Shown here piece by piece: positions 13,725 to 29,767 of a stretch of 64,000 nucleotides of DNA. The stretch spans positions 1 to 64,000 of the forward strand of contig NZ_JAHBGE010000008.1 of NCBI RefSeq assembly GCF_018390635.1, read 5' to 3'. Each line of letters starts with the position of its first letter. Position 1 is the first letter of the stretch. The DNA comes from Ancylobacter lacus. GTDB taxonomy: Bacteria > Pseudomonadota > Alphaproteobacteria > Rhizobiales > Xanthobacteraceae. A model generated the notes under the pieces. That model searched no databases. It worked only from the letters and a program-made list of their open reading frames with translations, and was not told where the DNA came from. The translations under genes were made by a program, and so were the position numbers.

Positions 13725-14438
13725 TCACGCCTGCGCGTCCGGCGCGGGCGGCAGATAGTCCTTCCAGATCGCCGCATCGCCAAGAGTCTTCACGAAGGCC
13801 TCGTGCGCGGCGATCTCGGCCGCCGACAGCCGGGGCGGCAGCGGCGCCGGCCGCGCCAGCGGGACGAGCGTGGTGCGCTCCTCGCGGCGGGCAACGGTTT
13901 CCGTGCTCATCAGCACCAGCGCCGCCTGGCGCCCGCCCGCCAGCTCGGCATAGACATCCGCCAGCAGCTCCGAGTCGAGCAGGGCCCCGTGCTTGGTGCG
14001 GCGCGAGCCGTCGATGCCGTAGCGCGCCATGAGGTCGTCGAGCCGGTTCGACGAACCGGGGTGCCGCCGCCGCGCCAGCGCCAGGGTGTCGATCACCCGG
14101 TCGAAGGTGAGGGGCGGACGGCCCAGCCGCGCCAGTTCGGCATTCAGGAAGCCAACGTCGAAGGCTGCGTTGTGGATCACCAGCGGGTCCTGGCCGATGA
14201 AGGCGAGGAACTCGTCCACCACCTTGGCGAAAACCGGCTTGTCCGACAGGAACTGTGCGGAAAGCCCGTGCACGTTGAACGCCTCGATCGGCATGTCGCG
14301 CTCGGGATTGATATAGACGTGGAAGGTGCTGCCGGTCGGAATCCGGTTCAGCAGCTCCACGCAGCCGATCTCGACCAGCCGGTCGCCCCGCAGCGGATCG
14401 AGGCCGGTGGTTTCGGTATCGAGCACGATCTCGCGCAT
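13725..14438 (-). CDS. dnaQ: DNA polymerase III epsilon subunit (proofreading exonuclease)
   Basis: DnaQ supplies the 3'-5' proofreading exonuclease of the replicative polymerase. The three DEDDh exonuclease motifs are present: DTETTG (residues 7-12), a second around NAAFDVGFL near 99-107, and HGALLDSELLADVY near 157-170 with the catalytic histidine and aspartate. The C-terminal 50 residues form the tail that binds the alpha subunit. I chose the ATG at 14438 because GAGGAAC lies just before it; an upstream start would overlap coaE by more. The 237-residue length is normal. It is the last gene of the leftward ppsR-maf-aroE-coaE-dnaQ run next to the origin. Confidence 0.95.
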   Translation of the reverse strand: MREIVLDTETTGLDPLRGDRLVEIGCVELLNRIPTGSTFHVYINPERDMPIEAFNVHGLSAQFLSDKPVFAKVVDEFLAFIGQDPLVIHNAAFDVGFLNAELARLGRPPLTFDRVIDTLALARRRHPGSSNRLDDLMARYGIDGSRRTKHGALLDSELLADVYAELAGGRQAALVLMSTETVARREERTTLVPLARPAPLPPRLSAAEIAAHEAFVKTLGDAAIWKDYLPPAPDAQA

Positions 14439-14446
14439 CTGGTTCC

Positions 14447-15058
14447 TCAGGCTCCGGCCCGGCACGCCGCCAGGCGTTCCAGCAGTTCCGCCACCTGCGC
14501 CCGGGCGACGTCGAGACCGCCGCCGGTATCGATGACGAAATCGGCGCGCCGGCGTTTTTCCGCATCCGGCATCTGCTTCGACAGGATTGCCGCGAAGGTC
14601 TCGGCTGTCATGCCCGGCCGGGCGAGGACCCGCTCGCGCTGCACGGCCTCCGGTGCCGATACCACGGCGACGGCGTCGACGCGACCCTGCGCGCCGGTTT
14701 CGAACAGCAGGGGGATGTCGAGCACCGCCACGGCCGCGCCCTGCCGCGTGGCCTCCTCAAGGAACCGCGCCTCGCGGGCCCGAACCAGGGGGTGGACGAT
14801 GGCCTCCAGCCGCGCCATGGCGGCAGGATCGCCCAGCACCCGCGGTCCCAGCCGGGTGCGGTCGATCACGCCGGCAACGGTGACGCCGGGAAAGGCGCTC
14901 TCCACCGCGGCGACGCCTTCATGACGGTAGATATCGTGCACCGCCGCGTCGGCATCGTGCACCGGCACGCCCCGCTCGCGGAAAAGGCCAGCGGTGGTGG
15001 ATTTGCCCATGCCGATGGAGCCGGTCAGGCCCAGCCGGAACGGGCGCAGCGAGCTCAT
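14447..15058 (-). CDS. coaE: Dephospho-CoA kinase
   Basis: CoaE phosphorylates dephospho-CoA at the ribose 3'-hydroxyl, the last step of coenzyme A synthesis. The P-loop [11 protein letters not shown] (residues 11-21), the DADAAVH segment and the lid region around [15 protein letters not shown] are typical. The protein has 203 residues. Its ATG overlaps the aroE stop as ATGA. Together with coaA at the left end, the window contains the first and last enzymes of CoA synthesis. Confidence 0.95.
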
Positions 15059-15900
15059 GCGAGCTGGCCCTTGGCGGCGAGGTCGGCGATGACCAGCGCG
15101 CGCAATTCGGCGGTGACCTGCGGGCGGACCCCGAACCAGCGCTCGAAGCCCGGCACCGCCTGGTGCAGCAGCATGCCGAGCCCATCCACGGTCGCGAGCC
15201 CACGGGCCTTGGCCGCGCGCAGCAGCGGGGTTTCCAGCGGCACATAGACCGCGTCGGTCACCACCGCGTCGGGCGAGAGCGCGGAGAGGTCGAGGTCGAG
15301 CGGCGGCTGGCCCTTCATGCCGAGCGAGGTGGTGTTCACCAGCAGCCGGCACCCTGCCAGCCGGCCGGCGAGATCGCGCCAGGCCACCGGCACCACCCGG
15401 GGGCCGAACTGCTCGCGCAGCGCCTCCGCCCGGGACAGCGTGCGGTTCGCGACCGCGATGCGGTCGATCCCCCGGGAGAGAAGGCCGTGGACAATGGCGC
15501 GCGAGGCGCCGCCGGCGCCCAGCACGACCGCATCGCCCAGCGCCGCCGCCCAGTCCGGCGCCCCGGCGTCGAGATTGGCGAGGAAGCCGTGCACGTCGGT
15601 GTTGGCGCCGTGCAGCCGGCCATCCTCCAGCCAGAGGGTGTTTACCGCCCCCAGCGCCGCCGCAACCTGATCGAGCTCGGCGCAGGCCCGGAAGGCGGCC
15701 TCCTTGTGCGGCACGGTGACGTTGCCGCCGACATAGCCCGATGTGGCGAAACCGGCGAGAAAGCCGTCAATGGCTTCCAGCGCGACGTCCTGCCGGCCGT
15801 ATTCCCCGTCGATCCCATGCTGGTTCAGCCAGAAGCCATGCACCAGCGGCGAGCGGGAATGGGCCACGGGGTGGCCGATGATGCAGGCGCGGCGGGTCAC
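15055..15900 (-). CDS. aroE: Shikimate dehydrogenase
   Basis: AroE reduces 3-dehydroshikimate to shikimate with NADPH in aromatic amino acid synthesis. The substrate site is visible as [10 protein letters not shown] near residues 15-24, with the catalytic lysine in [10 protein letters not shown] and the aspartate in NTDVHGF. The nucleotide-binding loop [12 protein letters not shown] and the NRT of [10 protein letters not shown] follow. The start is the GTG at 15900, which overlaps the maf stop as GTGA. The product has 281 residues. Confidence 0.95.
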
Positions 15901-16526
15901 GTCAGGCTTCCTTCCTGCCGCAGGAAAGCGAGCAGCGGCAGCAGCGGCATCCCCAGAATGGTGGAATGCGCCCCCTCCACCCGCTCGAACAGGTGAATGC
16001 CGAGCCCTTCGAGCTGATAGCCGCCGACACTGGCGAGCACCGCCTCTCCGGCCGCGTCGAGATAGGCCTCGAGCGTCGCCGGGTCGAGCGGGCGCATGGT
16101 GAGGTGAGCGCTGTCGACGGTGGAAAACAGCGTCTCGCCGTCGCGCGACACCGCGATGGCGGCATGCAGATCGTGGGTATGGCCGGCGAGGCGGCTGAGC
16201 TGCTCGCGCGCCGCCGCCCGGTCGACCGGCTTGTGGAAGGCGTCGTTGCCGAGCGCGAGCGTCTGGTCGGCCCCGATCACCAGCCGGCCCGGCGCCAGCG
16301 CCGCGCCGGCCAGGCTCTTTTCCCGGGCGAGCATCAGGGCGATCTGCTTCGGCCCAAAGCCGTTGGCATGGCCGCGTGCCTCGACGTCCCGCTCATCGAT
16401 GTCGGCGAGGATCACCTCGAAGGGCAGTCGCGCGCTCTCCAGCATCGCGCGGCGGGCGGCGCTGCGCGAGGCCAGCACCAGCGGCGCCCGGCCGTGCCAG
16501 AGCCCGAGGGCCGAATCGGTCATCAC
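15897..16526 (-). CDS. maf: Maf-family nucleotide pyrophosphatase
   Basis: Maf proteins hydrolyse non-canonical or modified nucleoside triphosphates such as dTTP, UTP or m7GTP, and have been linked to division arrest. The N-terminal [14 protein letters not shown] segment and the catalytic IGADQTL motif (aspartate near residue 86) identify the family. The 209-residue length is typical. Two adjacent ATGs (16526 and 16523) overlap the ppsR stop, so either could start it. The C-terminal [11 protein letters not shown] and [12 protein letters not shown] segments are also family hallmarks. I cannot tell the subfamily, and so the preferred substrate, with confidence. Confidence 0.92.
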
Positions 16527-17377
16527 ATGGGTTCCTGCAGCTTGCGGCGGTGCTCCTTGAGCAGGCCGATGATCGCCGCCGCGGTTTCCTCAATGGAACG
16601 GCGGGTGACGTCGATGATCGGCCAGCCGGCGCGGGCGCAGAGCTGGCGCGAATAGGCGATCTCCTCGGCCACCGCCTCGCGGTCGACATAGGAATCATTG
16701 GGCTGGAGCGCATTGAGCCCAAGCAGCCGGTTTCGGCGGATCTCCACCACCCGCTCCGGACTCGCCACCAGCCCGACCACCAGCGGGTGCTTCAACCCGT
16801 GAAGGCCGGGGGGGACGGGCACGTTGGGAACCAGCGGGATATTCGCGGTCTTAATCCCGCGATTGGCGAGATAGATGCTGGTCGGCGTCTTGGAGGAACG
16901 GGAAATGCCGAGCAGCACCACATCCGCTCCCTCCAGCCGGTCGGTGTGCTGGCCATCGTCGTGCATGACGGTGAAGTTCATGGCGTCGATGCGGCGGAAA
17001 TATTCATGGTCGAGCTGATGCTGCCCGCCGACACGGGGCGTCGGCTCGCCGCCGAGATAGGCCTGGAACAGCCGCACCACCGGCGCGAGGACGGAGAGCA
17101 CCGGCAGGCTGTTCTGGGCGCAGAATGTTTTCAGCCGGTTGCGCAGCTCCAGCTCGGTGAGGGTGTAGAGCACGATGCCGGGATGCGCCTCGATCTCGGT
17201 AAGCACCCGGTCGAGCTGCTTCTGGTTCCGAACCAGCGGATAGATGTGCTCGATCGGCTTGGCGTGGCTGTACTGCGCCGCCGCGGCGCGCCCGACGCTG
17301 ATCAGCGTCTCGCCCGTGGAGTCGGAGACGAGGTGGAGATGGAAGTAGCTCTCGGACGACGGGACAGGCTCGGTCAC
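16523..17377 (-). CDS. ppsR: Pyruvate phosphate dikinase / PEP synthase regulatory protein
   Basis: This bifunctional enzyme (DUF299) phosphorylates a threonine of pyruvate phosphate dikinase or PEP synthase with ADP, and removes it again using phosphate. The protein starts [13 protein letters not shown] and carries the P-loop-like [16 protein letters not shown] near residues 155-170, followed by NIPLVPNVP. The start is the GTG at 17377, which lies against the proposed origin. In Caulobacter and Rickettsia the homologue sits at the same place beside the origin, next to hemE. Its stop overlaps maf. Length 284. Confidence 0.93.
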
Positions 17378-17380
17378 GTG

Positions 17381-17389
17381 TTATCCCCA
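17381..17389 (+). promoter_or_regulatory. DnaA box (one mismatch)
   Basis: TTATCCCCA differs from the DnaA consensus TTATCCACA by one base and also contains the TCCCCA core reported for weak DnaA sites in Caulobacter. It lies immediately outside the ppsR start codon. Confidence 0.55.
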
Positions 17390-17562
17390 GCCCTGTGCAT
17401 GGCCTGTCGAAAAAGCCATGCCCTGCGGGGTCTGGCAAGGGTGCCCTGGGGATGGCGCCGGATTCCGTCCACAGGGGTGTCCGCTGTGGAAGATGGAAGG
17501 AGGCAGGCTCTGGGAATCGAGGATAACTCGTCGCACCCTTGCCAAGGGTCCGGCCACACTCG

Positions 17563-17578
17563 TTAATTCTTCGTTAAC
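17563..17578 (+). promoter_or_regulatory. Full CtrA binding box
   Basis: The sequence reads TTAA, seven bases, TTAAC, a perfect match to the CtrA consensus. CtrA is the cell-cycle regulator that silences replication initiation in Caulobacter and is conserved in Hyphomicrobiales. It sits 110 bases before hemE and may both block the origin and regulate hemE. Confidence 0.7.
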
Positions 17579-17688
17579 GCGCCCGGCCGGAGTCGGGGCG
17601 GCGTGGGGATTGGTTGTCGGATCGCCGGAACCCGGCTAATCCGCACCCACAGACTCTACAGACTCAATAGAAAAGAGATTTAGAAAGT

Positions 17689-18741
17689 ATGAATGGGGCA
17701 GTGGAAGATCGTTCGGGGACGAGCACGCTGCTCCAGGCACTCACCGGCCGGGTGCCGGCCCGGGTTCCGGTCTGGATGATGCGGCAGGCCGGCCGCTATC
17801 TCCCGGAATACCGGGCTTTGCGGGAGAAGGCGGGCGACTTCCTGACCCTGTGCTACACCCCGGAATTCGCCACCGAGGTGACGCTCCAGCCGATCCGCCG
17901 CTTCGGATTCGATGCGGCGATCCTGTTTTCCGACATTCTGGTGGTGCCCCACGCGCTCGGCTGCGACCTGCGCTTCGAGCCGGGCGAGGGTCCGCGCCTC
18001 TCCACCGTGACCTCGGCCGCCGACCTTGCCGGCCTTCGCGAAACCCTCGATCCCGCCCGGATCGGCAAGGTCTGCGAGGCGGTTTCCGCCATCCGGGCCC
18101 AGCTTCCGCGCGATGTCGCGCTTCTCGGCTTCTGCGGCGCACCCTGGACGGTGGCGACCTACATGGTGGCGGGCCGCGGCACCGACGACCAGATGCCGGC
18201 ACGGCTGGCCGCCTTCCGCGATCCCGCCTTCCTCGAGGCCCTGATCGACCGGCTGGTTGAGACCTCCAGCGCCTATCTCATCGCCCAGCTCCGGGCCGGG
18301 GCGGACGCGGTGCAGATCTTCGACAGCTGGTCCGGCGTGCTCGATCCCGAGCAGTTCCGGCGGTGGACGATCAGGCCGATCGGGAGGATGGTGCGTGCGG
18401 TGCGTGCGGCCATTCCCGGCGCGAAGATCATCGCCTTCCCGAAGGGGGCGTCTCTCGCCGGGCTCACCGAGCTGGCGCTCGCCACCGGGGTCGACGCGGT
18501 GGGGCTCGACTGGACCGCCGACCGCCGCGGGGTGCGTGCCGCCCTTGGCGGGCGCTGCGCCCTGCAGGGCAACCTCGACCCGCTGCGGCTGATCGCCGGC
18601 GGCCGGGCGCTGGACGAGGGCATCGACGCGCTGATGGCCGATTTCCGCGGCGCGTCGCACATCTTCAATCTCGGCCATGGCATCCGGCCGGAAACGCCGA
18701 TCGCCCATGTCGAGCACATGCTGAAGCGGCTGCGCGGCTGA
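17689..18741 (+). CDS. hemE: Uroporphyrinogen decarboxylase
   Basis: HemE removes four carboxyl groups from uroporphyrinogen III to give coproporphyrinogen III in heme synthesis. The signature PVWMMRQAGRYLPEYR lies near residues 26-41, and the second motif GFCGAPWTVATYM near 146-158. The invariant substrate aspartate is in LFSDILVVPHALG. The 350-residue length is usual. The gene is immediately right of the predicted origin, as in other alphaproteobacteria, and is transcribed away from it toward hemJ and rho. Confidence 0.96.
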   Translation: MNGAVEDRSGTSTLLQALTGRVPARVPVWMMRQAGRYLPEYRALREKAGDFLTLCYTPEFATEVTLQPIRRFGFDAAILFSDILVVPHALGCDLRFEPGEGPRLSTVTSAADLAGLRETLDPARIGKVCEAVSAIRAQLPRDVALLGFCGAPWTVATYMVAGRGTDDQMPARLAAFRDPAFLEALIDRLVETSSAYLIAQLRAGADAVQIFDSWSGVLDPEQFRRWTIRPIGRMVRAVRAAIPGAKIIAFPKGASLAGLTELALATGVDAVGLDWTADRRGVRAALGGRCALQGNLDPLRLIAGGRALDEGIDALMADFRGASHIFNLGHGIRPETPIAHVEHMLKRLRG

Positions 18742-18816
18742 GGCCGCCGCCGCTCCGGCCCGGCCGTGGCGCGCGCGCCGGCCGGGGCCTGCGCAGGCTC
18801 TAAGGGAGGAACCGGG

Positions 18817-19242
18817 ATGGCCTATGAGTGGATCAAGGCGCTGCATGTCATCGCCATCATCTCCTGGATGGCGGCGATGCTCTATCTGCCCCGGCTGATG
18901 GTCTATCACTGCGCCGCGCCGGCGGGTTCCCCGCAATCCGAGACGTTCAAGGTGATGGAGCGGCGGCTGCTCCGTGCGATCGCCACCCCGGCCATGGTGG
19001 TGAGCTGGGTGGCGGGCATCGCCCTGGCCTGGCAGGGCGGCTGGTTCGCCAGCGGCTGGCTTCACGTGAAACTCGTCCTGGTGCTGGCGATGAGCGCGAT
19101 GCATGGCCAGCTCGCCATGTGGGTCGGCCAGTTCGCCCGCGACGCCAACACCCGCAGCGCCCGGTTCTACCGCATCGCCAACGAGGTGCCGACCGTTCTG
19201 ATGATCGGCATCGTGATCCTGGTGATCGTCAAGCCGTTCTGA
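18817..19242 (+). CDS. hemJ: Protoporphyrinogen IX oxidase, HemJ type
   Basis: HemJ oxidises protoporphyrinogen IX to protoporphyrin IX in the inner membrane and replaces HemG or HemY in many proteobacteria. The 141-residue product has about four transmembrane helices. It shows the conserved N-terminal histidine in [23 protein letters not shown], and the LHVKLVLV helix with a heme-ligand-type histidine. The ATG at 18817 follows a strong AGGGAGGA site. It lies 75 bases after hemE, so the two form a heme synthesis pair. A degenerate parS-like palindrome falls within its coding sequence (19058-19073). Confidence 0.93.
19058..19073. other. Degenerate parS-like site in hemJ
   Basis: GGCTTCACGTGAAACT matches 13 of 16 bases of the parS consensus TGTTTCACGTGAAACA, with the central CACGTG and both inner arms intact. 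It lies 1.5 kb from the predicted origin. The match may be chance within the WLHVKL codons. Confidence 0.35.
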
Positions 19243-19469
19243 AAAGCCGAAACCGGGCTTGCGGGGAATCGCCGGCTTGCCTATGGTGGCAGTGCTTTCC
19301 ACAAAGCTGGCTGACGCACGCGTCTCTTCCGCCCTCCTTCCCCGAGGACGGCAATGCGTCGGATCCGGAACCGGCCTTCCCCGTTTCGTTCCACAGACCA
19401 GCGCCTCCCTGCCCTTCAGCCCGGACCGCCATCTGCTCCGGGCCTGTCCAACTTCCGAGGCCTTTTCCC

Positions 19470-20735
<1,266 letters not shown>

Positions 20736-21105: not shown

Positions 21106-21557
21106 CGGCGCGTCCACAGCCGAACGCAGACGGAGCCGCCGGCCTTCCCGCCGTGCCGCGTCGTCCGCTGCTGCCGGCGTGATGCAGGCGGAAGGCTGGT
21201 CCCGGACATTGTGAAGAGTCTGCAACCAGTGCGCGATAAAATGACGGTTTCGCCCGCGAAACGGCCGTCCCCATAAATGACTCGTGGCGGCCGATCGCGG
21301 GTCGATCCGATCTCCACATCGTCAAAGGGCAAAGTACGGCCAGCGGGCATTTCTGCCCATTTGCAGGGTCCTGGCGGATTTCACCCCCAGCTTGTCCACA
21401 GCCTGCTCACAAACCCGCCGACACGCCGGGGCGGAGCCCGCCGGCCGAAAGCCGGCGCCGCCTTCAGGCGGTAGCGATGGCCGGCGACCGTCGCGCGAGG
21501 GCGCCTATCCCCGCCGGCCGCCGCCCTGCCCGGAAGGGCGAGCCCGGCCCCTCGCCC
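21106..21557. other. 452-base gap between rho-operon tail and DUF255 gene
   Basis: Two genes converge on this gap. It contains a GTTTCG/CGAAAC hairpin at 21247-21262 and two hairpins at 21439-21457 and 21458-21471 that could serve as 3' structures. A DnaA-like TTGTCCACA occurs at 21392-21400, one mismatch from consensus. I see no convincing coding sequence. A small RNA cannot be excluded. Confidence 0.5.
21439..21471. terminator. Paired GC hairpins downstream of the DUF255 gene
   Basis: A CGCCGGC/GCCGGCG stem with a five-base CGAAA loop is followed directly by a CCGCC/GGCGG stem with a TTCA loop. They lie about 90 bases beyond the DUF255 stop on its strand. No T-run is present. Confidence 0.35.
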
Positions 21558-23576
<2,019 letters not shown>

Positions 23577-23715
23577 GTCGGGCGTCCTCTGTCTGTCGCC
23601 GGAAGGCCGCGGCGCCGGGGCCGCGGGGGCGGAAGAGCGGGCATGGGTCGGTCTCGAACATAGGGCGTAGCGCGTGGAACGACAGCGGGAAAGCCGGCAG
23701 GAGCCGGGTGCGGCG

Positions 23716-25104
23716 ATGGGTTCCGGCGAGCCGGCGGGCGGCGAGGAAGGCACCATCGCCGCGGTCTCGACCGCGCCGGGCCGGGCGGCGGTGGCGGTCA
23801 TCCGGCTCTCCGGGCCTGACGCCGGGGCGGCGCTGACGGCGCTGGCGGGCCGGCTGCCGGAGCCGCGCCGGGCAACGCTGGCGACGCTGCGCGACGCCGC
23901 CGGCGACCGGCTCGACCAGGCGCTGGTGCTGTGGTTTCCCGCCCCCCGCAGCGCGACCGGCGAGGACATGGCGGAGCTTCAGCTCCATGGCGGCCGGGCG
24001 GTCGTCGCCGCGGTGCTGGAGGCGCTGTGGCGGTTGCCCGGCCTGCGCCCCGCGGGCCCCGGCGAGTTCACCCGCCGCGCCTTTCTCAACGGCCGGATGG
24101 ACCTTGCCGCCGTGGAGGGCCTCGCCGACCTGCTGGCGGCGGAGACCGAGGGCCAGCGCCGCCTCGCCCTCGCCCACGCCTTCGGCCATCTCGGCGCCCG
24201 GGTCGACGACTGGCGCCGCCGGCTGGTGCGGGCGATGGCGCTGGTGGAGGCCGGCATCGATTTCGCCGAGGAGGAGGACATCCCGCGCGATGCCCGCGCC
24301 GCGGCCCGGCCGGATATCGAGGCGCTGGCGGCCGAACTCTCGACAGCGCTGGCCGACCGCCGTGGCGAGCTGGTGCGCGAGGGCGCCCACATCGCCATCG
24401 CCGGCCTGCCCAATGCCGGCAAGTCCTCGCTTCTCAACGCGCTGGCCGCCCGGGACATCGCCATCGTCTCGGACGAACCCGGCACCACGCGGGACCTGCT
24501 GGAGGTCGCGCTCGATCTCGGCGGCCACAAGGCCGTGCTGATCGACACCGCCGGCCTGAGGGAGGCGGGCGCCGGCAAGGTCGAGGCCGAGGGCATCCGC
24601 CGCGCCCGCGCCCGCATCGCCGCGGCCGATCTCGTGCTGTGGGTGCACGACGCCGCCGCCGGCCCGGCTCCGGCAGAGGCGCCGGACATCGCCCGCGCCC
24701 GGGGCGCGCCGCTCTGGCTGCTGGCGAACAAGGCGGACCGTGCCGAGCCGGTGCCCGGCCCTTCTGCGACCGCGCCGCCGGACTGGGCGGCGGCGGTGCT
24801 GCCGCTCTCGGCCCGCACCGGGCTGGGACTGGAGGCTCTCGCCGCCGCGCTGTCGCGCTGGCTGGCGGGGCGGGTGGATGCGGCGGGCGAGCATCCAGCC
24901 CTCCTCCGCGCCCGCCACCGCGCCGCGGCACAGGAGGTGGCGGACCGGCTCGGTACCGTGCTGGATAACTGGGACACGCTGGAGGACGAATTGCTGGCGG
25001 AGGAGCTGCGCCTCGCCGCCGCGGCGCTGGGGCGGATCACCGGCCGTATCGGCGTCGAGGATCTGCTGGATGTGGTGTTCCGGGAATTCTGCGTGGGCAA
25101 ATGA
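23716..25104 (+). CDS. mnmE: tRNA uridine-5-carboxymethylaminomethyl modification GTPase MnmE
   Basis: MnmE with MnmG forms the enzyme that makes cmnm5U at the wobble position of several tRNAs. The N-terminal tetrahydrofolate-binding domain runs to about residue 115. The G domain has GLPNAGKSS (near 225), [15 protein letters not shown] and NKAD. The C-terminal catalytic cysteine is in the final FCVGK. I chose the ATG at 23716; an in-frame GTG at 23674 would add 14 residues and overlap the divergent promoter. The 462-residue product is slightly longer than average at the start. It forms a functional pair with mnmG downstream. Confidence 0.95.
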
Positions 25105-25167: not shown

Positions 25168-25213
25168 GCGCGCGGCGCGGCGCCGCGGGCGCCGCCGGCT
25201 GGCCCCACCCCCG

Positions 25214-25229
25214 TGTTTCACGTGAATCA
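25214..25229. other. parS centromere site
   Basis: TGTTTCACGTGAATCA matches 15 of 16 bases of the parS consensus. It lies in the mnmE-mnmG gap, 3.7 kb before the parB start and about 7.5 kb from the predicted origin. ParB loads here and spreads as a CTP-dependent clamp. Confidence 0.85.
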
Positions 25230-25332
25230 CGCGAACCGATTCGCTTCCGGTCCAATCGGTCTTCCGCCGCTGCAACGCCGCCACCGTGGCTTGCCGCTTG
25301 ACGCCCGCCGGCAAAACCGGTTTCCAGAGGGC

Positions 25333-27276
25333 ATGACCCATTCCCTCGCACCTTCCCCTTCTCCGGCGCCGCCGGAGGCTGACGCCCGGCAACCCGCCGG
25401 CACGGCCGTGCACGGCCGGTTTGACGTCATCATCGTCGGCGGCGGCCACGCCGGTGTCGAGGCTGCCGCCGCGTCCGCACGGCTCGGCGCCCGCACCGCG
25501 CTGGTGACGCATGCGCGCGCCACGCTCGGCGCCATGTCCTGCAACCCCGCCATTGGCGGCCTCGGCAAGGGCCATCTGGTCCGCGAGGTCGATGCGCTCG
25601 ACGGGCTGATGGGGCGGCTTGCCGACGCCGCGGGCATCCAGTTCCGGGTGCTGAACCGGCGCAAGGGGCCGGCGGTGCGCGGCCCGCGGGCGCAGGCCGA
25701 CCGCGCGCTCTACGCCGCCGCCACCCGCGCGGCGATCGATTCGGTGCCGAACCTATCGGTCGTCGAAGCCGAGGTGGACGATCTCCAGCTCGCGCCCGGC
25801 CCGGGCCCGGCCGCCGTCACCGGCGTGGTGCTGGCGGATGGAAGCGTGCTCGGCTGCGGCGCGGTGGTTCTCACCACCGGCACCTTCCTCACCGGGCTTA
25901 TCCATATTGGCGACCGCCGTGTGCCGGCCGGGCGCATGGGCGAGAAGCCAGCGCTCGGCCTGTCGGCGACGCTGCGCCGGCTCGGCCTCGCCGTGGGCCG
26001 GCTGAAGACCGGCACGCCGCCGCGGCTCGATGGCCGCACCATCGACTGGGGAGCGCTGGAGATGCAGCCCGGCGACACACCGCCGGAGCCCTTCTCCACC
26101 CTGACCGAGCGGATCGTGACACCGCAGATCGCCTGCGGCATCACCCGCACCACTCCGGCGACGCATGAGGTGATCCGGGCCAATCTCGCGCGTTCGGCGA
26201 TGTATTCCGGCTCGATCACCAGTGTCGGCCCGCGCTATTGCCCCTCCATCGAGGACAAGATCGTCCGTTTCGGCGAGCGCGACGGCCACCAGATCTTCCT
26301 CGAACCGGAGGGGTTGGACGACCCCACGGTCTATCCCAACGGCATCTCCACCTCGCTGCCGGAAGACGCCCAGATCGCCCTGCTGCGCACCATTCCCGGC
26401 CTTGAGCGGGTCACGATGCTGCGGCCGGGCTATGCCATCGAATATGACCATGTCGACCCCCGCGAGCTGGAGCCGACGCTGGAGGCGCGCCGCGTCGGCG
26501 GCCTTTTCCTCGCTGGCCAGATCAACGGCACCACCGGCTATGAGGAGGCGGCGGCGCAGGGGCTGGTCGCCGGGCTGAACGCGGCGCGGCGGGCGGGCGG
26601 TGCCGCCGGCGTCACCTTCGACCGCGCCGAGGCCTATATCGGCGTGATGATCGACGACCTCGTGACCCGCGGCGTCAGCGAACCCTACCGCATGTTCACC
26701 TCGCGGGCGGAATACCGGCTGTCGCTGCGGGCGGACAATGCCGACCAGCGGCTGACCGCGCGGGGCATCGCGCTGGGCTGCGTCGGCGCGGCGCGGGCGG
26801 CCGCCTTCGGCGCCAAGCAGGCAGCGCTTCAATCCGCCCGGCGCTTTGCCGATTCCGTGGCGCTGACGCCGAAGGAGGCGGAGCGTTACGGACTCGTTTT
26901 GAATCAGGATGGCCACCGCCGCACCGGCTTCGGCCTCCTCGCCTATCCCGACGTGGACTGGGCCACCCTCACCCGGATCTGGCCGGAGGAAACCGCCGGC
27001 ATTGCCCCGGCCATCGGCGAACAGGTCGAGATCGACGCCAAATACGCGGTCTATCTCGACCGCCAGGCCGCCGACATCGCCCGGTTCCGCCGCGACGAAG
27101 CGGCCGAGCTGCCGGCGGCGCTGGACTATCGCGGCCTTGCCGGGCTCTCCAACGAGATCAAGGCCAAGCTGGAGTCGATTCGGCCCCGTACCATTGGCCA
27201 GGCCGGGCGGATCGACGGCATGACCCCGGCGGCACTGGCGCTTCTGGCGGCGCATGCCCGCAAGGCGGCCGGTTGA
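25333..27276 (+). CDS. mnmG: tRNA uridine-5-carboxymethylaminomethyl modification enzyme MnmG
   Basis: MnmG (GidA) is the FAD-dependent partner of MnmE in wobble-uridine modification. The FAD-binding Rossmann loop [14 protein letters not shown] lies near residues 34-47. The conserved [20 protein letters not shown] and TTGTFLTG segments follow, and a catalytic cysteine is in [19 protein letters not shown]. The C-terminal tRNA-binding helical domain is present. The ATG at 25333 follows AGAGG; upstream in-frame codons run through the parS sites and are not protein-like. Its 647 residues exceed the usual 620-630 only by a proline-rich N-terminal leader. Confidence 0.95.
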
Positions 27277-27333: not shown

Positions 27334-27984
27334 ATGACCGCCGCTCCCGATTCGACCGCCGACCGTCGCGAGGCTCTTGCCCTCTGTCCTGTTTCACGTG
27401 AAACGGAAGAGCGGCTGGACGCCATCGTCGCCCTGCTGCTGAAGTGGCAGAAGACCATCAATCTGGTGGCGCCGGCGACGCTGCCGGAGGTGTGGACCCG
27501 CCATGTCGCCGATTCGCTGCAGCTGGTGCCGCTGGCGGGAGAGGTCTCGCGCTGGGTCGATCTCGGCTCCGGCGGCGGCTTTCCCGGGCTGGTGGTGGCG
27601 GCGGCTCTGGCGGAGCGGGAGAATGTCGACATCGTCCTGGTCGAGAGCGACACCCGCAAGGCCGCCTTCCTGCGTGAGGCGGCCCGGGTCGCCGATCTGC
27701 CGGTGACGGTGGTGCCGATGCGGATCGAGCAGGCGGCGCCGCGCATCGCGGCGGGAGTCGAGGTCGTCTCCGCCCGCGCGCTTGCGCCGCTGCCGAAACT
27801 GCTCGACCTCGCCGCGCCCTTCCTTGCGCAGGGCGCGCGCGGCCTGTTCCTGAAGGGACAAGATGTTGATAACGAATTGACCGAGGCCTCTAAATCTTGG
27901 AAGATTCAGGCCTCGACCGTGACCAGCCGCACCCACCGGGACGGGCGGGTCCTGATCGTCGAGCGGGCCGAGCCGCGAGGCTGA
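27334..27984 (+). CDS. rsmG: 16S rRNA (guanine527-N7)-methyltransferase RsmG
   Basis: RsmG (GidB) methylates G527 of 16S rRNA with S-adenosylmethionine; its loss gives low-level streptomycin resistance. The SAM-binding loop [14 protein letters not shown] lies near residues 72-85. The [13 protein letters not shown] and [13 protein letters not shown] segments are typical. A parS palindrome overlaps codons 19-24, encoding CPVSRET, an arrangement known in several bacteria. The gene lies between mnmG and parA in the classical origin-proximal cluster. Length 216. Confidence 0.95.
27390..27405. other. parS centromere site inside rsmG
   Basis: TGTTTCACGTGAAACG matches 15 of 16 bases of the parS consensus; only the last base differs. 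It lies within the rsmG coding sequence about 620 bases before parA. Confidence 0.87.
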
Positions 27985-28013
27985 GCCATCACTGCTTCAT
28001 CAGGGTCGAAGCC

Positions 28014-28859
28014 ATGAACGAGCTTCCCTCCAGCGATCTTCCCTCGCCTTCCGCCGGAGCGCCGGGGCCACGGGTGCTGGCTCTCGCCAACCAGAAGGGC
28101 GGGGTGGGCAAGACCACCACCGCTATCAATCTCGGCACCGCGCTGGCGGCGATCGGCGAGCGCGTGCTCATTGTCGATCTCGACCCGCAGGGCAACGCCT
28201 CCACCGGGCTCGGCATCGAGCAGCGCAGCCGGCGGGTGTCGAGCTACGACGTCATGGTCGGCGACGCGCCGATGGCCGAGGCGCTGCTGCCCACCGCGGT
28301 GCCGCGACTCTCCATCGTCGCCTCCACCATGGACCTCTCCGGGCTGGAGCTGGAGATCGCCGGCTTTCGCGACCGTGCGTTTCGGCTCCGTAACGCTATT
28401 CGGTCGCTGACGCCGGAGGGCGGCGCGGCGCCGTTCGACTATGTGCTGATCGACTGCCCGCCCTCGCTGAACCTCATCACCATCAACGCCATGGCCGCGG
28501 CGAACGCGATCCTGGTGCCGCTGCAGTGCGAGTTCTTTGCCCTTGAGGGTCTGTCGCAGCTGTTGAAGACGGTGGAGCAGGTGCGCACCACGCTGAATCC
28601 CACGCTCAGCATCCACGGCATCGTCCTCACCATGTTCGACGCCCGCAACAACCTGTCGGGACAGGTGGTGGCGGATGTGAAGCAGTTCATGGGATCGAAG
28701 GTCTACGACACCATCATCCCCCGCAACGTCCGCATTTCCGAGGCGCCGTCCTACGGCAAGCCGGCGCTGCTTTATGATCTCAAATGCTCGGGCTCGCAGG
28801 CGTATATCCGTCTCGCTTCCGAAATCATCCAGCGCGAGCGCGAGCTGCGCGCCGCGTGA
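28014..28859 (+). CDS. parA: Chromosome partitioning ATPase ParA
   Basis: ParA is a deviant Walker ATPase that binds DNA non-specifically and drives segregation of ParB-parS complexes. The deviant P-loop ANQKGGVGKTTTAINLG is near residues 24-40, with LIVDLDPQGNAS and VLIDCPPSLN following. The ATG at 28014 gives 281 residues, the size of chromosomal ParA (Soj) proteins that lack the N-terminal DNA-binding domain of plasmid types. In this class monomer-dimer switching is controlled by ParB. It is followed 14 bases later by parB. Confidence 0.96.
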   Translation: MNELPSSDLPSPSAGAPGPRVLALANQKGGVGKTTTAINLGTALAAIGERVLIVDLDPQGNASTGLGIEQRSRRVSSYDVMVGDAPMAEALLPTAVPRLSIVASTMDLSGLELEIAGFRDRAFRLRNAIRSLTPEGGAAPFDYVLIDCPPSLNLITINAMAAANAILVPLQCEFFALEGLSQLLKTVEQVRTTLNPTLSIHGIVLTMFDARNNLSGQVVADVKQFMGSKVYDTIIPRNVRISEAPSYGKPALLYDLKCSGSQAYIRLASEIIQRERELRAA

Positions 28860-28873
28860 CGCCGAGGGAGACG

Positions 28874-29767
28874 ATGATGGCAATGCCCGATGAGAATGGA
28901 CGCTCGCGCCTCGGCCGCGGGCTGGCGGCGCTGATCGGCGATGTCGGCCAGGAGAATGCCGGCGCCGAGCGGCCGGGCCGCTCCGGCCAGCGGCGGGTGC
29001 CGATCGCCTTCCTCCGCCCCAACCCGCACAATCCCCGCCGCAGCTTCGGCGTGGAGGAGCTTGCGGAACTGGCCGACTCGATCCGCGCCCGCGGCGTGAT
29101 CCAGCCCATCGTGGTGCGGGCCGCGGGGCCGGAGGCGTTCGAGATCATCGCCGGCGAACGCCGCTGGCGCGCGGCGCAGACCGCCGGGCTGCACGAGGTG
29201 CCGGTCGTCGTCATCGAGGTGACCGATCGCGAGGCGCTCGAGATCGCCATCATCGAGAATGTGCAGCGCGCCGACCTCAACCCGCTGGAAGAGGCGATGG
29301 GCTACCAGTCGCTGGCGGAGCAGTTCGGCTATTCCCAGGCCGATGTCGCCCGCGTCATCGGCAAGAGCCGCAGCCATGTCGCCAACACGGTTCGGCTGCT
29401 GAAGCTGCCGGACGCGGTGAAGACCTATCTCGCCGATGGCCGCCTCTCCGCCGGCCATGCCCGCGCCCTGCTGACCCAGGACGACCCGGAGACGCTGGCC
29501 CGTGCCATCGTCGAACAGGGCCTGAACGTGCGCGAGGTCGAGGCGCTGGCGCAGGAGCTGAACGCGGTGCGGGCCGAGGCGGCCGGGCGGCCTGCCAAGG
29601 TGCGCACCCCGCCCGACGCCGACACCCGGGCGCTGGAACGCCGCATCGCCGACGCGCTGGGGCTGAAGGTCACGCTGAAGCATGACGGCGAAAGCGGGGA
29701 ACTGCGCATCCGCTACAGTTCGCTCGACCAGCTCGACGAACTCGCCCGGCTCCTCGCCGGCGGCTGA
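28874..29767 (+). CDS. parB: Chromosome partitioning protein ParB
   Basis: ParB binds parS, loads as a CTP-driven sliding clamp and stimulates ParA ATPase. The N-terminal RLGRGLAALIGD segment is the ParA-stimulating peptide. The CTP-binding motifs are FLRPNPHNPRR, GVIQPIVVR and GERRWRA, followed by ENVQRADLNPLEEA. A helix-turn-helix follows (YSQADVARVIGKSRSHVANT). The C-terminal dimerisation domain ends the 297-residue protein. Three nearby ATGs (28874, 28877, 28883) could start it; GGGAG sits before the first. parS sites lie upstream at 25152, 25214 and 27390. Confidence 0.96.
   Translation: MMAMPDENGRSRLGRGLAALIGDVGQENAGAERPGRSGQRRVPIAFLRPNPHNPRRSFGVEELAELADSIRARGVIQPIVVRAAGPEAFEIIAGERRWRAAQTAGLHEVPVVVIEVTDREALEIAIIENVQRADLNPLEEAMGYQSLAEQFGYSQADVARVIGKSRSHVANTVRLLKLPDAVKTYLADGRLSAGHARALLTQDDPETLARAIVEQGLNVREVEALAQELNAVRAEAAGRPAKVRTPPDADTRALERRIADALGLKVTLKHDGESGELRIRYSSLDQLDELARLLAGG

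Follow-up and report, generated by a model that had tools for sequence, protein, structure and literature searches.

The intergenic gap between ppsR and hemE in this Ancylobacter species, which presumably belongs to the family Xanthobacteraceae, order Hyphomicrobiales, is very probably the chromosomal replication origin, oriC. This reading of the sequence is based on gene synteny, the proximity of parS-like sites and of parA and parB, a segment of low duplex stability, conserved DnaA-type sites, and the GC skew of one member of the genus. The gap covers 311 bp (positions 17378-17688, 60% GC, as re-read from the sequence) of the window, which is the whole stretch of 64,000 bases analysed here and corresponds to bases 1-64000 of contig C78 (174,601 bp) in a 4.63-Mb draft genome of 90 unordered contigs. 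The genus is assigned from PpsR, as 13 of 16 named relatives with this protein (79-87% identity) belong to Ancylobacter. A location next to hemE is what one would expect of an alphaproteobacterial origin and is nothing new. The potentially new part may be the arrangement of the boxes for the master regulator CtrA; no report of the two-box arrangement described below, or of its loss in Ancylobacter, was found in the parts of the open-licence literature that were consulted.

An initial annotation had called this gap an origin repressed by CtrA and marked by CcrM methylation. The origin itself is well supported, and the length of the gap, the exact CtrA box at 17563-17578, the one-mismatch DnaA box at 17381, and the weak DnaA box at 17485 were all found again on re-reading.

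DnaA-type sites and the unstable edge of the gap

Thirty genomes of the genus were searched for the same locus. Conserved sites are given as counts of alignment columns where fixed-distance counts differ (the ppsR start is offset in locus L144). The following features were found in the gap:

17378..17688, no strand: putative oriC, ppsR-hemE intergenic region, 311 bp; ppsR and hemE flank a gap of 307-356 bp in 30/30 genus genomes
17381..17397, plus strand: DnaA-type inverted element TTATCCCCA-GCC-CTGTG (relatives mostly TCATCCACAG..CTGTG)
17447..17452, minus strand: TCCCCA motif (W-box-like), TGGGGA in 27/30 genus gaps
17461..17665, no strand: five GANTC (CcrM-type) sites at 17461, 17514, 17590, 17652 and 17661, spanning 205 bases
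17468..17473, plus strand: TCCACA hexamer (CCGTCCACA), its six columns invariant in 30/30
17485..17493, minus strand: weak DnaA box TCTTCCACA, two mismatches
17518..17526, minus strand: weak DnaA box TTATCCTCG, GGATAA core in 27/30, GTGGATAA in 17/30
17562..17578, no strand: CtrA box GTTAATTCTTCGTTAAC, perfect on both strands, shared with locus L143 (genome G198) in the same column, aligned with box 1 of the sister genera
17604..17609, minus strand: TCCCCA motif near the unstable segment, TGGGG in 29/30 genus gaps
17636..17640, plus strand: CTAAT pentamer, invariant in 30/30, aligned with the left half of CtrA box 2 of the sister genera (GTTAATCAACCGTTAAGAC)
17654..17693, no strand: the 40 bp of lowest duplex stability in the 64-kb window, a candidate duplex-unwinding element that extends into the hemE start

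The inverted element at 17381 begins with TTATCCCCA, which has one mismatch to the strong DnaA box TTATCCACA. Positions 17384-17386, 17388-17390 and 17393-17397 of this element are unchanged in all 30 genus gaps, while 17387 is C in the window only and A in the other 29. Similarly, positions 17485, 17486 and 17488 of the weak box at 17485 are invariant, and 17487 is the same in 28 of the 30. Three DnaA-like sites that the initial annotation did not contain are also present, namely TTATCCTCG at 17518 (minus strand), TTTTCGACA at 17405 (minus strand), and TAATCCGCA at 17637 (plus strand). The TCCCCA motifs are located at 17384 (plus strand), 17447 and 17604 (both minus strand). At the last of these sites, the 18 sister-genus loci introduced below carry TCCACA instead, within GATCCACA in 11 of them. 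As a separate observation, the strong box TTATCCACA is scarce genome-wide, with three matches versus 26 of the reversed control.

Chance expectations were obtained from 5000 dinucleotide-preserving shuffles of the gap, as the fraction that reached the observed count. At up to two mismatches, the gap contains five DnaA-like sites, a number that none of the shuffles reached (mean 0.51). The fraction was 0.037 for DnaA boxes with up to one mismatch, 0.0054 for the three TCCCCA motifs, and 0.0074 for the five GANTC sites. Both of these motif counts lie above chance; the counts and the GANTC span of 205 bases agree with the initial annotation. Several DnaA-type hexamers are kept in 27 to 30 of the 30 genus gaps. 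In total, 69 columns between 17384 and 17693 are identical in all aligned genus gaps, including TCC.CAG..CTGTG, TCCACA, part of the GGATAA core, CTAAT, and the first bases of hemE.

CtrA boxes in Ancylobacter and in its sister genera

The CtrA box TTAATTCTTCGTTAAC at 17563-17578 is exact on the plus strand, and can also be read exactly on the minus strand from 17562. A doubly readable box did not occur in any of the 5000 shuffles. At up to one mismatch, no other CtrA pattern occurs in the 64 kb, where 0.08 are expected from shuffles. Across the genome, perfect TTAA-N7-TTAAC was found at seven distinct places (11 strand matches), and its reversed control at none. A second perfect, doubly readable box lies on C78 (114310-114326) between genes for an S41 peptidase and a NUDIX protein. 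Twenty open reading frames (ORFs) were scanned near the six other perfect sites, and those with an assigned family encode an L,D-transpeptidase, AIR carboxylase, a glycosyltransferase, enolase, an M24 peptidase, the S41 peptidase, the NUDIX protein, and GSDH, with none at one site. These boxes had been considered as a check that the motif is that of CtrA; as they reveal no obvious CtrA regulon, they neither support nor refute it.

All 30 genus genomes encode a CtrA match. The copy of the window genome, the only one so checked, scores 420.9 bits on NCBIfam NF045991 (cut-off 350). A perfect CtrA box is present in two of the 30 genus gaps, those of the window and of L143, in the same alignment column. 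One-mismatch boxes were found in L144, L145 and L147, located 5, 21 and 21 columns nearer to ppsR than the window box, respectively. The reversed motif occurs with one mismatch in two of the 30 gaps and perfectly in none; therefore, the two perfect boxes stand out from this control, and the three one-mismatch boxes do not. The idea that these three are intermediates of decay is weakened by the same control and by their column offsets. The remaining 25 gaps have no CtrA box at up to one mismatch, which means that origins of this type cannot depend on CtrA across the genus. At up to two mismatches, CtrA-like sites were seen in 28 of the 30 gaps versus seven for the reversed motif, an excess that may reflect half-site remnants or the AT-rich hemE edge.

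The block around the box (17553-17580) shows 89% identity between the window and L143, and the whole gap 73%. The two best 25-bp bins of this pair, each with an identity of 0.92, are those at 17553 and 17628, and the CtrA box lies in one of them. In the protein tree (44 rows, four of which had ppsR only, one of those with a single HemE residue), the window, L143, L144, L145 and L147 form one clade (ultrafast support 87), and the other 25 members form another (95). Support was 99 for the window with L143, L145 and L147, and 78 for the genus. A genome deposited as Bosea sp. 117 (L038 / G206, with identical gap) falls within the Ancylobacter genus group and the clade of the window.

The sister-genus set consists of 18 loci (L014-L031) from five genera (g2, g7, g14, g19 and g41), which we take to be Xanthobacter- and Azorhizobium-like; ten of the loci come from one genus and are not independent. 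All 18 gaps possess two CtrA boxes 92-105 bp apart. Box 1 is a perfect match in 14 loci and box 2 in 15; the others have one mismatch. Every locus has at least one perfect box, and the reversed motif never comes nearer than two mismatches. Box 1 lies 157-179 bp from ppsR and aligns with the window box at about 185 bp. Box 2, GTTAATCAACNGTTAAGAC, was found at up to two mismatches in 47 of 391 family genomes (five for the reversed motif) and in none of the 30 of the genus. Exact box 2 occurs in 15 genomes, all from g2, g14 and g41, and beside ppsR in the 12 of these that were placed. The invariant CTAAT pentamer of the genus could be a relic of box 2 or have another function.

Similar to the window, the sister-genus gaps have the aligned box 1, conserved DnaA-type hexamers, and a GACTC-rich hemE edge in the same gap. 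However, they carry two CtrA boxes and TCCACA before box 2, whereas the window has one box, and TCCCCA at that place. Among 40 further stretches of the wider family, hemE was found in 30, TTAA-N7-TTAA in five, and the two-box arrangement in g7 and g14 loci only. Class-wide, 40 gaps from 99 genomes with a match were inspected, of which 35 had hemE adjacent and six contained TTAA-N7-TTAA, thus the boxes are patchy beyond the family. These six distant alphaproteobacterial loci (L203, L204, L211, L214, L218 and L229) belong to other families.

From these alignments, the window has probably kept the first box of a sister-type pair, and this pair is probably being lost in the genus. In the simplest history, the ancestor would have had both boxes; box 2 would have disappeared ahead of the radiation of the genus, and box 1 subsequently in most of its lines. 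That the window and L143 gained their box independently is less likely, because the window box aligns with the boxes of the sister genera. We tentatively propose, at just under an even chance, that genera next to Ancylobacter within the Xanthobacteraceae have a two-box CtrA switch at oriC, and that Ancylobacter is dismantling it while CtrA is kept, with box 2 gone in 30/30 genomes, box 1 perfect in two, and box 1 absent or doubtful in 28 at the one-mismatch level. If true, Ancylobacter would offer a natural series in which to follow the uncoupling of a master regulator from an origin. Given paired boxes in all 18 sister gaps and a loss of boxes from most Ancylobacter, one could test whether the control of replication by CtrA was inherited, regained or lost within this order, and what takes its place.

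Whether CtrA acts at this particular origin is evenly balanced. Repression by CtrA, as originally suggested, is plausible given that CtrA is present and that the box is perfect and kept in one near relative, but it has to be set against the boxless majority of the genus. The gap may instead be an oriC at which CtrA is inactive, with the box as a non-functional leftover or chance match, as in many boxless Ancylobacter; this reading falls somewhat short of an even chance. It would account for 25 members that encode CtrA and lack a box at up to one mismatch, for the genus-wide absence of box 2 at up to two mismatches, and for three one-mismatch sites that do not exceed the two of the reversed control. 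It fits less well with a perfect box that keeps its column in L143, falls within one of the two best-conserved bins, and aligns with a box in 18/18 sister-genus loci.

The number of GANTC sites varies from zero to five per gap across the genus, the window having the highest. The genome encodes one N6/N4 methylase gene that matches the NCBIfam CcrM model almost end to end; its score of 601 bits falls short of the cut-off of 830. The proposed marking by CcrM has the five sites and a CcrM-like gene in its favour and is weakly supported, the number of sites not being conserved in the genus; a role of GANTC methylation at this origin is possible but less likely than not.

Genomic setting, GC skew and other readings of the gap

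The gap lies in the usual alphaproteobacterial origin cluster, with tim44, secB, dnaQ, coaE, aroE, maf and ppsR on one side, and hemE, hemJ, rho, mnmE, mnmG, rsmG, parA and parB on the other. The neighbouring features are:

13725..14465, minus strand: dnaQ-like exonuclease
14447..15352, minus strand: coaE (ORF as listed)
15055..15900, minus strand: aroE
15897..16526, minus strand: maf
16523..17377, minus strand: ppsR (COG1806/DUF299, Kinase-PPPase; PF03618, E 1e-89)
17689..18741, plus strand: hemE (PF01208, E 1.3e-111)
18766..19242, plus strand: hemJ-like (UPF0093)
19470..20735, plus strand: rho
23674..25104, plus strand: mnmE
25213..27276, plus strand: mnmG (ORF as listed)
25214..25229, no strand: parS-like site, one mismatch
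27334..27984, plus strand: rsmG
27390..27405, no strand: parS-like site, one mismatch
27897..28859, plus strand: parA (ORF as listed)
28784..29767, plus strand: parB

In part as first noted, most genes left of the gap point leftward (tim44, dnaQ, coaE, aroE, maf and ppsR), and most genes to its right point rightward (hemE, hemJ, rho, mnmE, mnmG, rsmG, parA and parB). This pattern has exceptions, which are secB (13049) and an AAA-family gene (8462) on the left, and the DUF255 gene (21558-23969), leuS and a GGDEF gene (beyond 31 kb) on the right. The DUF255 gene is interposed between rho and mnmE. In this region (21477-23969), a plus-strand ORF of 728 amino acids without a family overlaps the minus-strand DUF255 thioredoxin-domain gene of 803 amino acids, and the minus-strand ORF is likely the real gene of the pair.

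The two parS-like sites are located 7.5-10 kb from the gap, and represent two of the three distinct places in the genome at up to one mismatch. The reversed motif gave one match per strand in the genome, and 0.01 sites are expected in the window by chance, even at two mismatches.

GC skew was sampled in 32 stretches of 20 kb in G151, a genome of the same genus with a contig of 4.62 Mb. It is negative in 15 of the 16 samples left of the locus, the last of which holds the gap near its right end. On the right, 14 of 15 samples reaching as far as 4.08 Mb are positive, and the one at 4.4 Mb is negative again. Along a contiguous 240 kb, the cumulative minimum lies at 2,129,479, inside ppsR and 0.7 kb from the gap. 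For G013, a sister-genus record that begins about 80 bases inside hemE, 20 samples were taken: seven of the nine on the ppsR side are positive, and towards hemE ten of 11 are negative. The sign switches back between 2.4 and 2.7 Mb.

Several observations weigh against the gap as origin, or against CtrA control there. The boxless genus gaps were described above, and a perfect DnaA box is absent from the gap. The contig of the window, C78, has weak skew that does not switch clearly at the gap (mean -0.0016 to its left, +0.0012 to its right), and the cumulative minimum of this contig is at 23,092, 5.4 kb to the right. Octamers resembling FtsK-orienting polar sequences (KOPS) on C78 show no bias, with 1/0 left and 18/16 right of the gap; among the matches listed in a genome-wide search (at least 100 places), none was on C78. 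G013 has a negative value in the ppsR-side sample adjoining the gap, and its local minimum lies 26 kb from the gap. Within the clade of the window, the minimum of G208 (L145) is at 3,838,543, the edge of a 200-kb stretch and not at the gap, and that of G206 (L144) is at 136,139, some 105 kb from it. For G207, the minimum of an 80-kb stretch is about 38 kb distant from the gap. Skew fails to locate the origin in C78, G206 and G208, and this is the main weakness of the origin case. Finally, the control gap between hemJ and rho is more conserved than the ppsR-hemE gap (50% versus 35% of columns at 88% or above, in 17 loci). Conservation of the gap was therefore rejected as proof of an origin; what counts is which motifs are kept, rather than how much of the gap. 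The hemJ-rho gap (19243-19469 in the window) itself contains invariant runs of up to 10 bases, and is perhaps a regulated rho leader.

This strongly conserved neighbour, together with the position of the gap between two divergent genes, would also agree with a mere divergent promoter of ppsR and hemE, in which the CtrA box regulates either gene and the DnaA-like motifs are chance or transcriptional. CtrA sites serve as promoter elements in other systems (available text of PMC2877005). Nevertheless, a promoter alone is very improbable: DnaA-like sites exceed all 5000 shuffles and include several hexamers that are invariant or nearly so in the genus, the lowest duplex stability of the window falls at the expected edge, the skew minimum of G151 is sharp at this place, and parS-like sites are present. 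Least probable of all is an oriC elsewhere, for example relocated by a rearrangement in the window lineage with the gap kept as the ancestral site in its gene cluster, since the weak skew around the locus in C78, G206 and G208 and the mixed GC skew left of the gap in G208 (11 samples, six positive, four negative and one zero) are opposed by parA, parB and two of three parS-like places that remain here, by the DnaA-type hexamers and unstable edge that the window gap retains, and by the other signs in G208 (GC skew positive in 8/9 and AT skew negative in 8/9 samples on the right, AT skew positive in 8/11 on the left).

With the ppsR-hemE gap as oriC, DnaA would assemble on the weak conserved sites at 17381-17397, 17447, 17468-17493, 17518-17526 and 17604, filling them in the direction from ppsR to hemE, and melt the unstable segment at 17654-17693 beside hemE, where the helicase would be loaded. 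Phosphorylated CtrA would probably bind the single box at 17562-17578, between the DnaA-type sites at 17518 and 17604, and hinder DnaA assembly; perhaps it also affects the hemE promoter. The ParABS sites 7.5-10 kb off would then segregate the new origins.

Comparison with known origins

The W-boxes of Cori, the origin of Caulobacter crescentus, are TCCCCA-like. The G-box, a Cori-type DnaA site which we take to have the sequence TGATCCACA, was not found in the window gap. The IHF site of the Caulobacter origin (WATCAN5WTR) is absent from the window gap and from all 30 genus gaps, and present in one of the 18 sister-genus gaps. Five CtrA boxes are present in Cori, versus one in the window. Loss of CtrA sites in a genus is nonetheless plausible, given the mild effect of weakened CtrA binding in Caulobacter described below. 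The gene order at the Sinorhizobium meliloti chromosome origin is presumably the same as in the window.

The pair of ppsR (COG1806) and hemE bounds the origins of Caulobacter and Rickettsia prowazekii, according to the part of PMC1914354 consulted. Similar to the window, Cori lies in the hemE-COG1806 gap, and possesses weak DnaA sites, an AT-rich stretch, CtrA boxes, and parS at about 8 kb (passages of PMC1914354, PMC4468827 and PMC6399470; the parS distance from the latter two). Steric exclusion of DnaA is described as the simplest proposed mechanism of CtrA in Caulobacter, and when CtrA binding was weakened at each of the five sites, the cell cycle in the laboratory was only mildly disturbed (both from sections of PMC4468827).

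The hemE-linked origins of Wolbachia, Ehrlichia, Anaplasma and Rickettsia were predicted from hemE and from CtrA and DnaA sites. In contrast to the window gap, they have predicted IHF sites, and the other flank is COG1253 in some. Some of these species have CtrA but no CtrA sites at the origin, which is thus already described (all in the consulted part of PMC1914354). For Brucella, the available text of PMC2877005 states that the origin is not bound by CtrA. Sinorhizobium meliloti resembles the present case in its CtrA-dependent cell cycle (excerpt of PMC11500502), and binding of CtrA near the origin of Hyphomonas has been reported from chromatin immunoprecipitation data (excerpt of PMC7200025).
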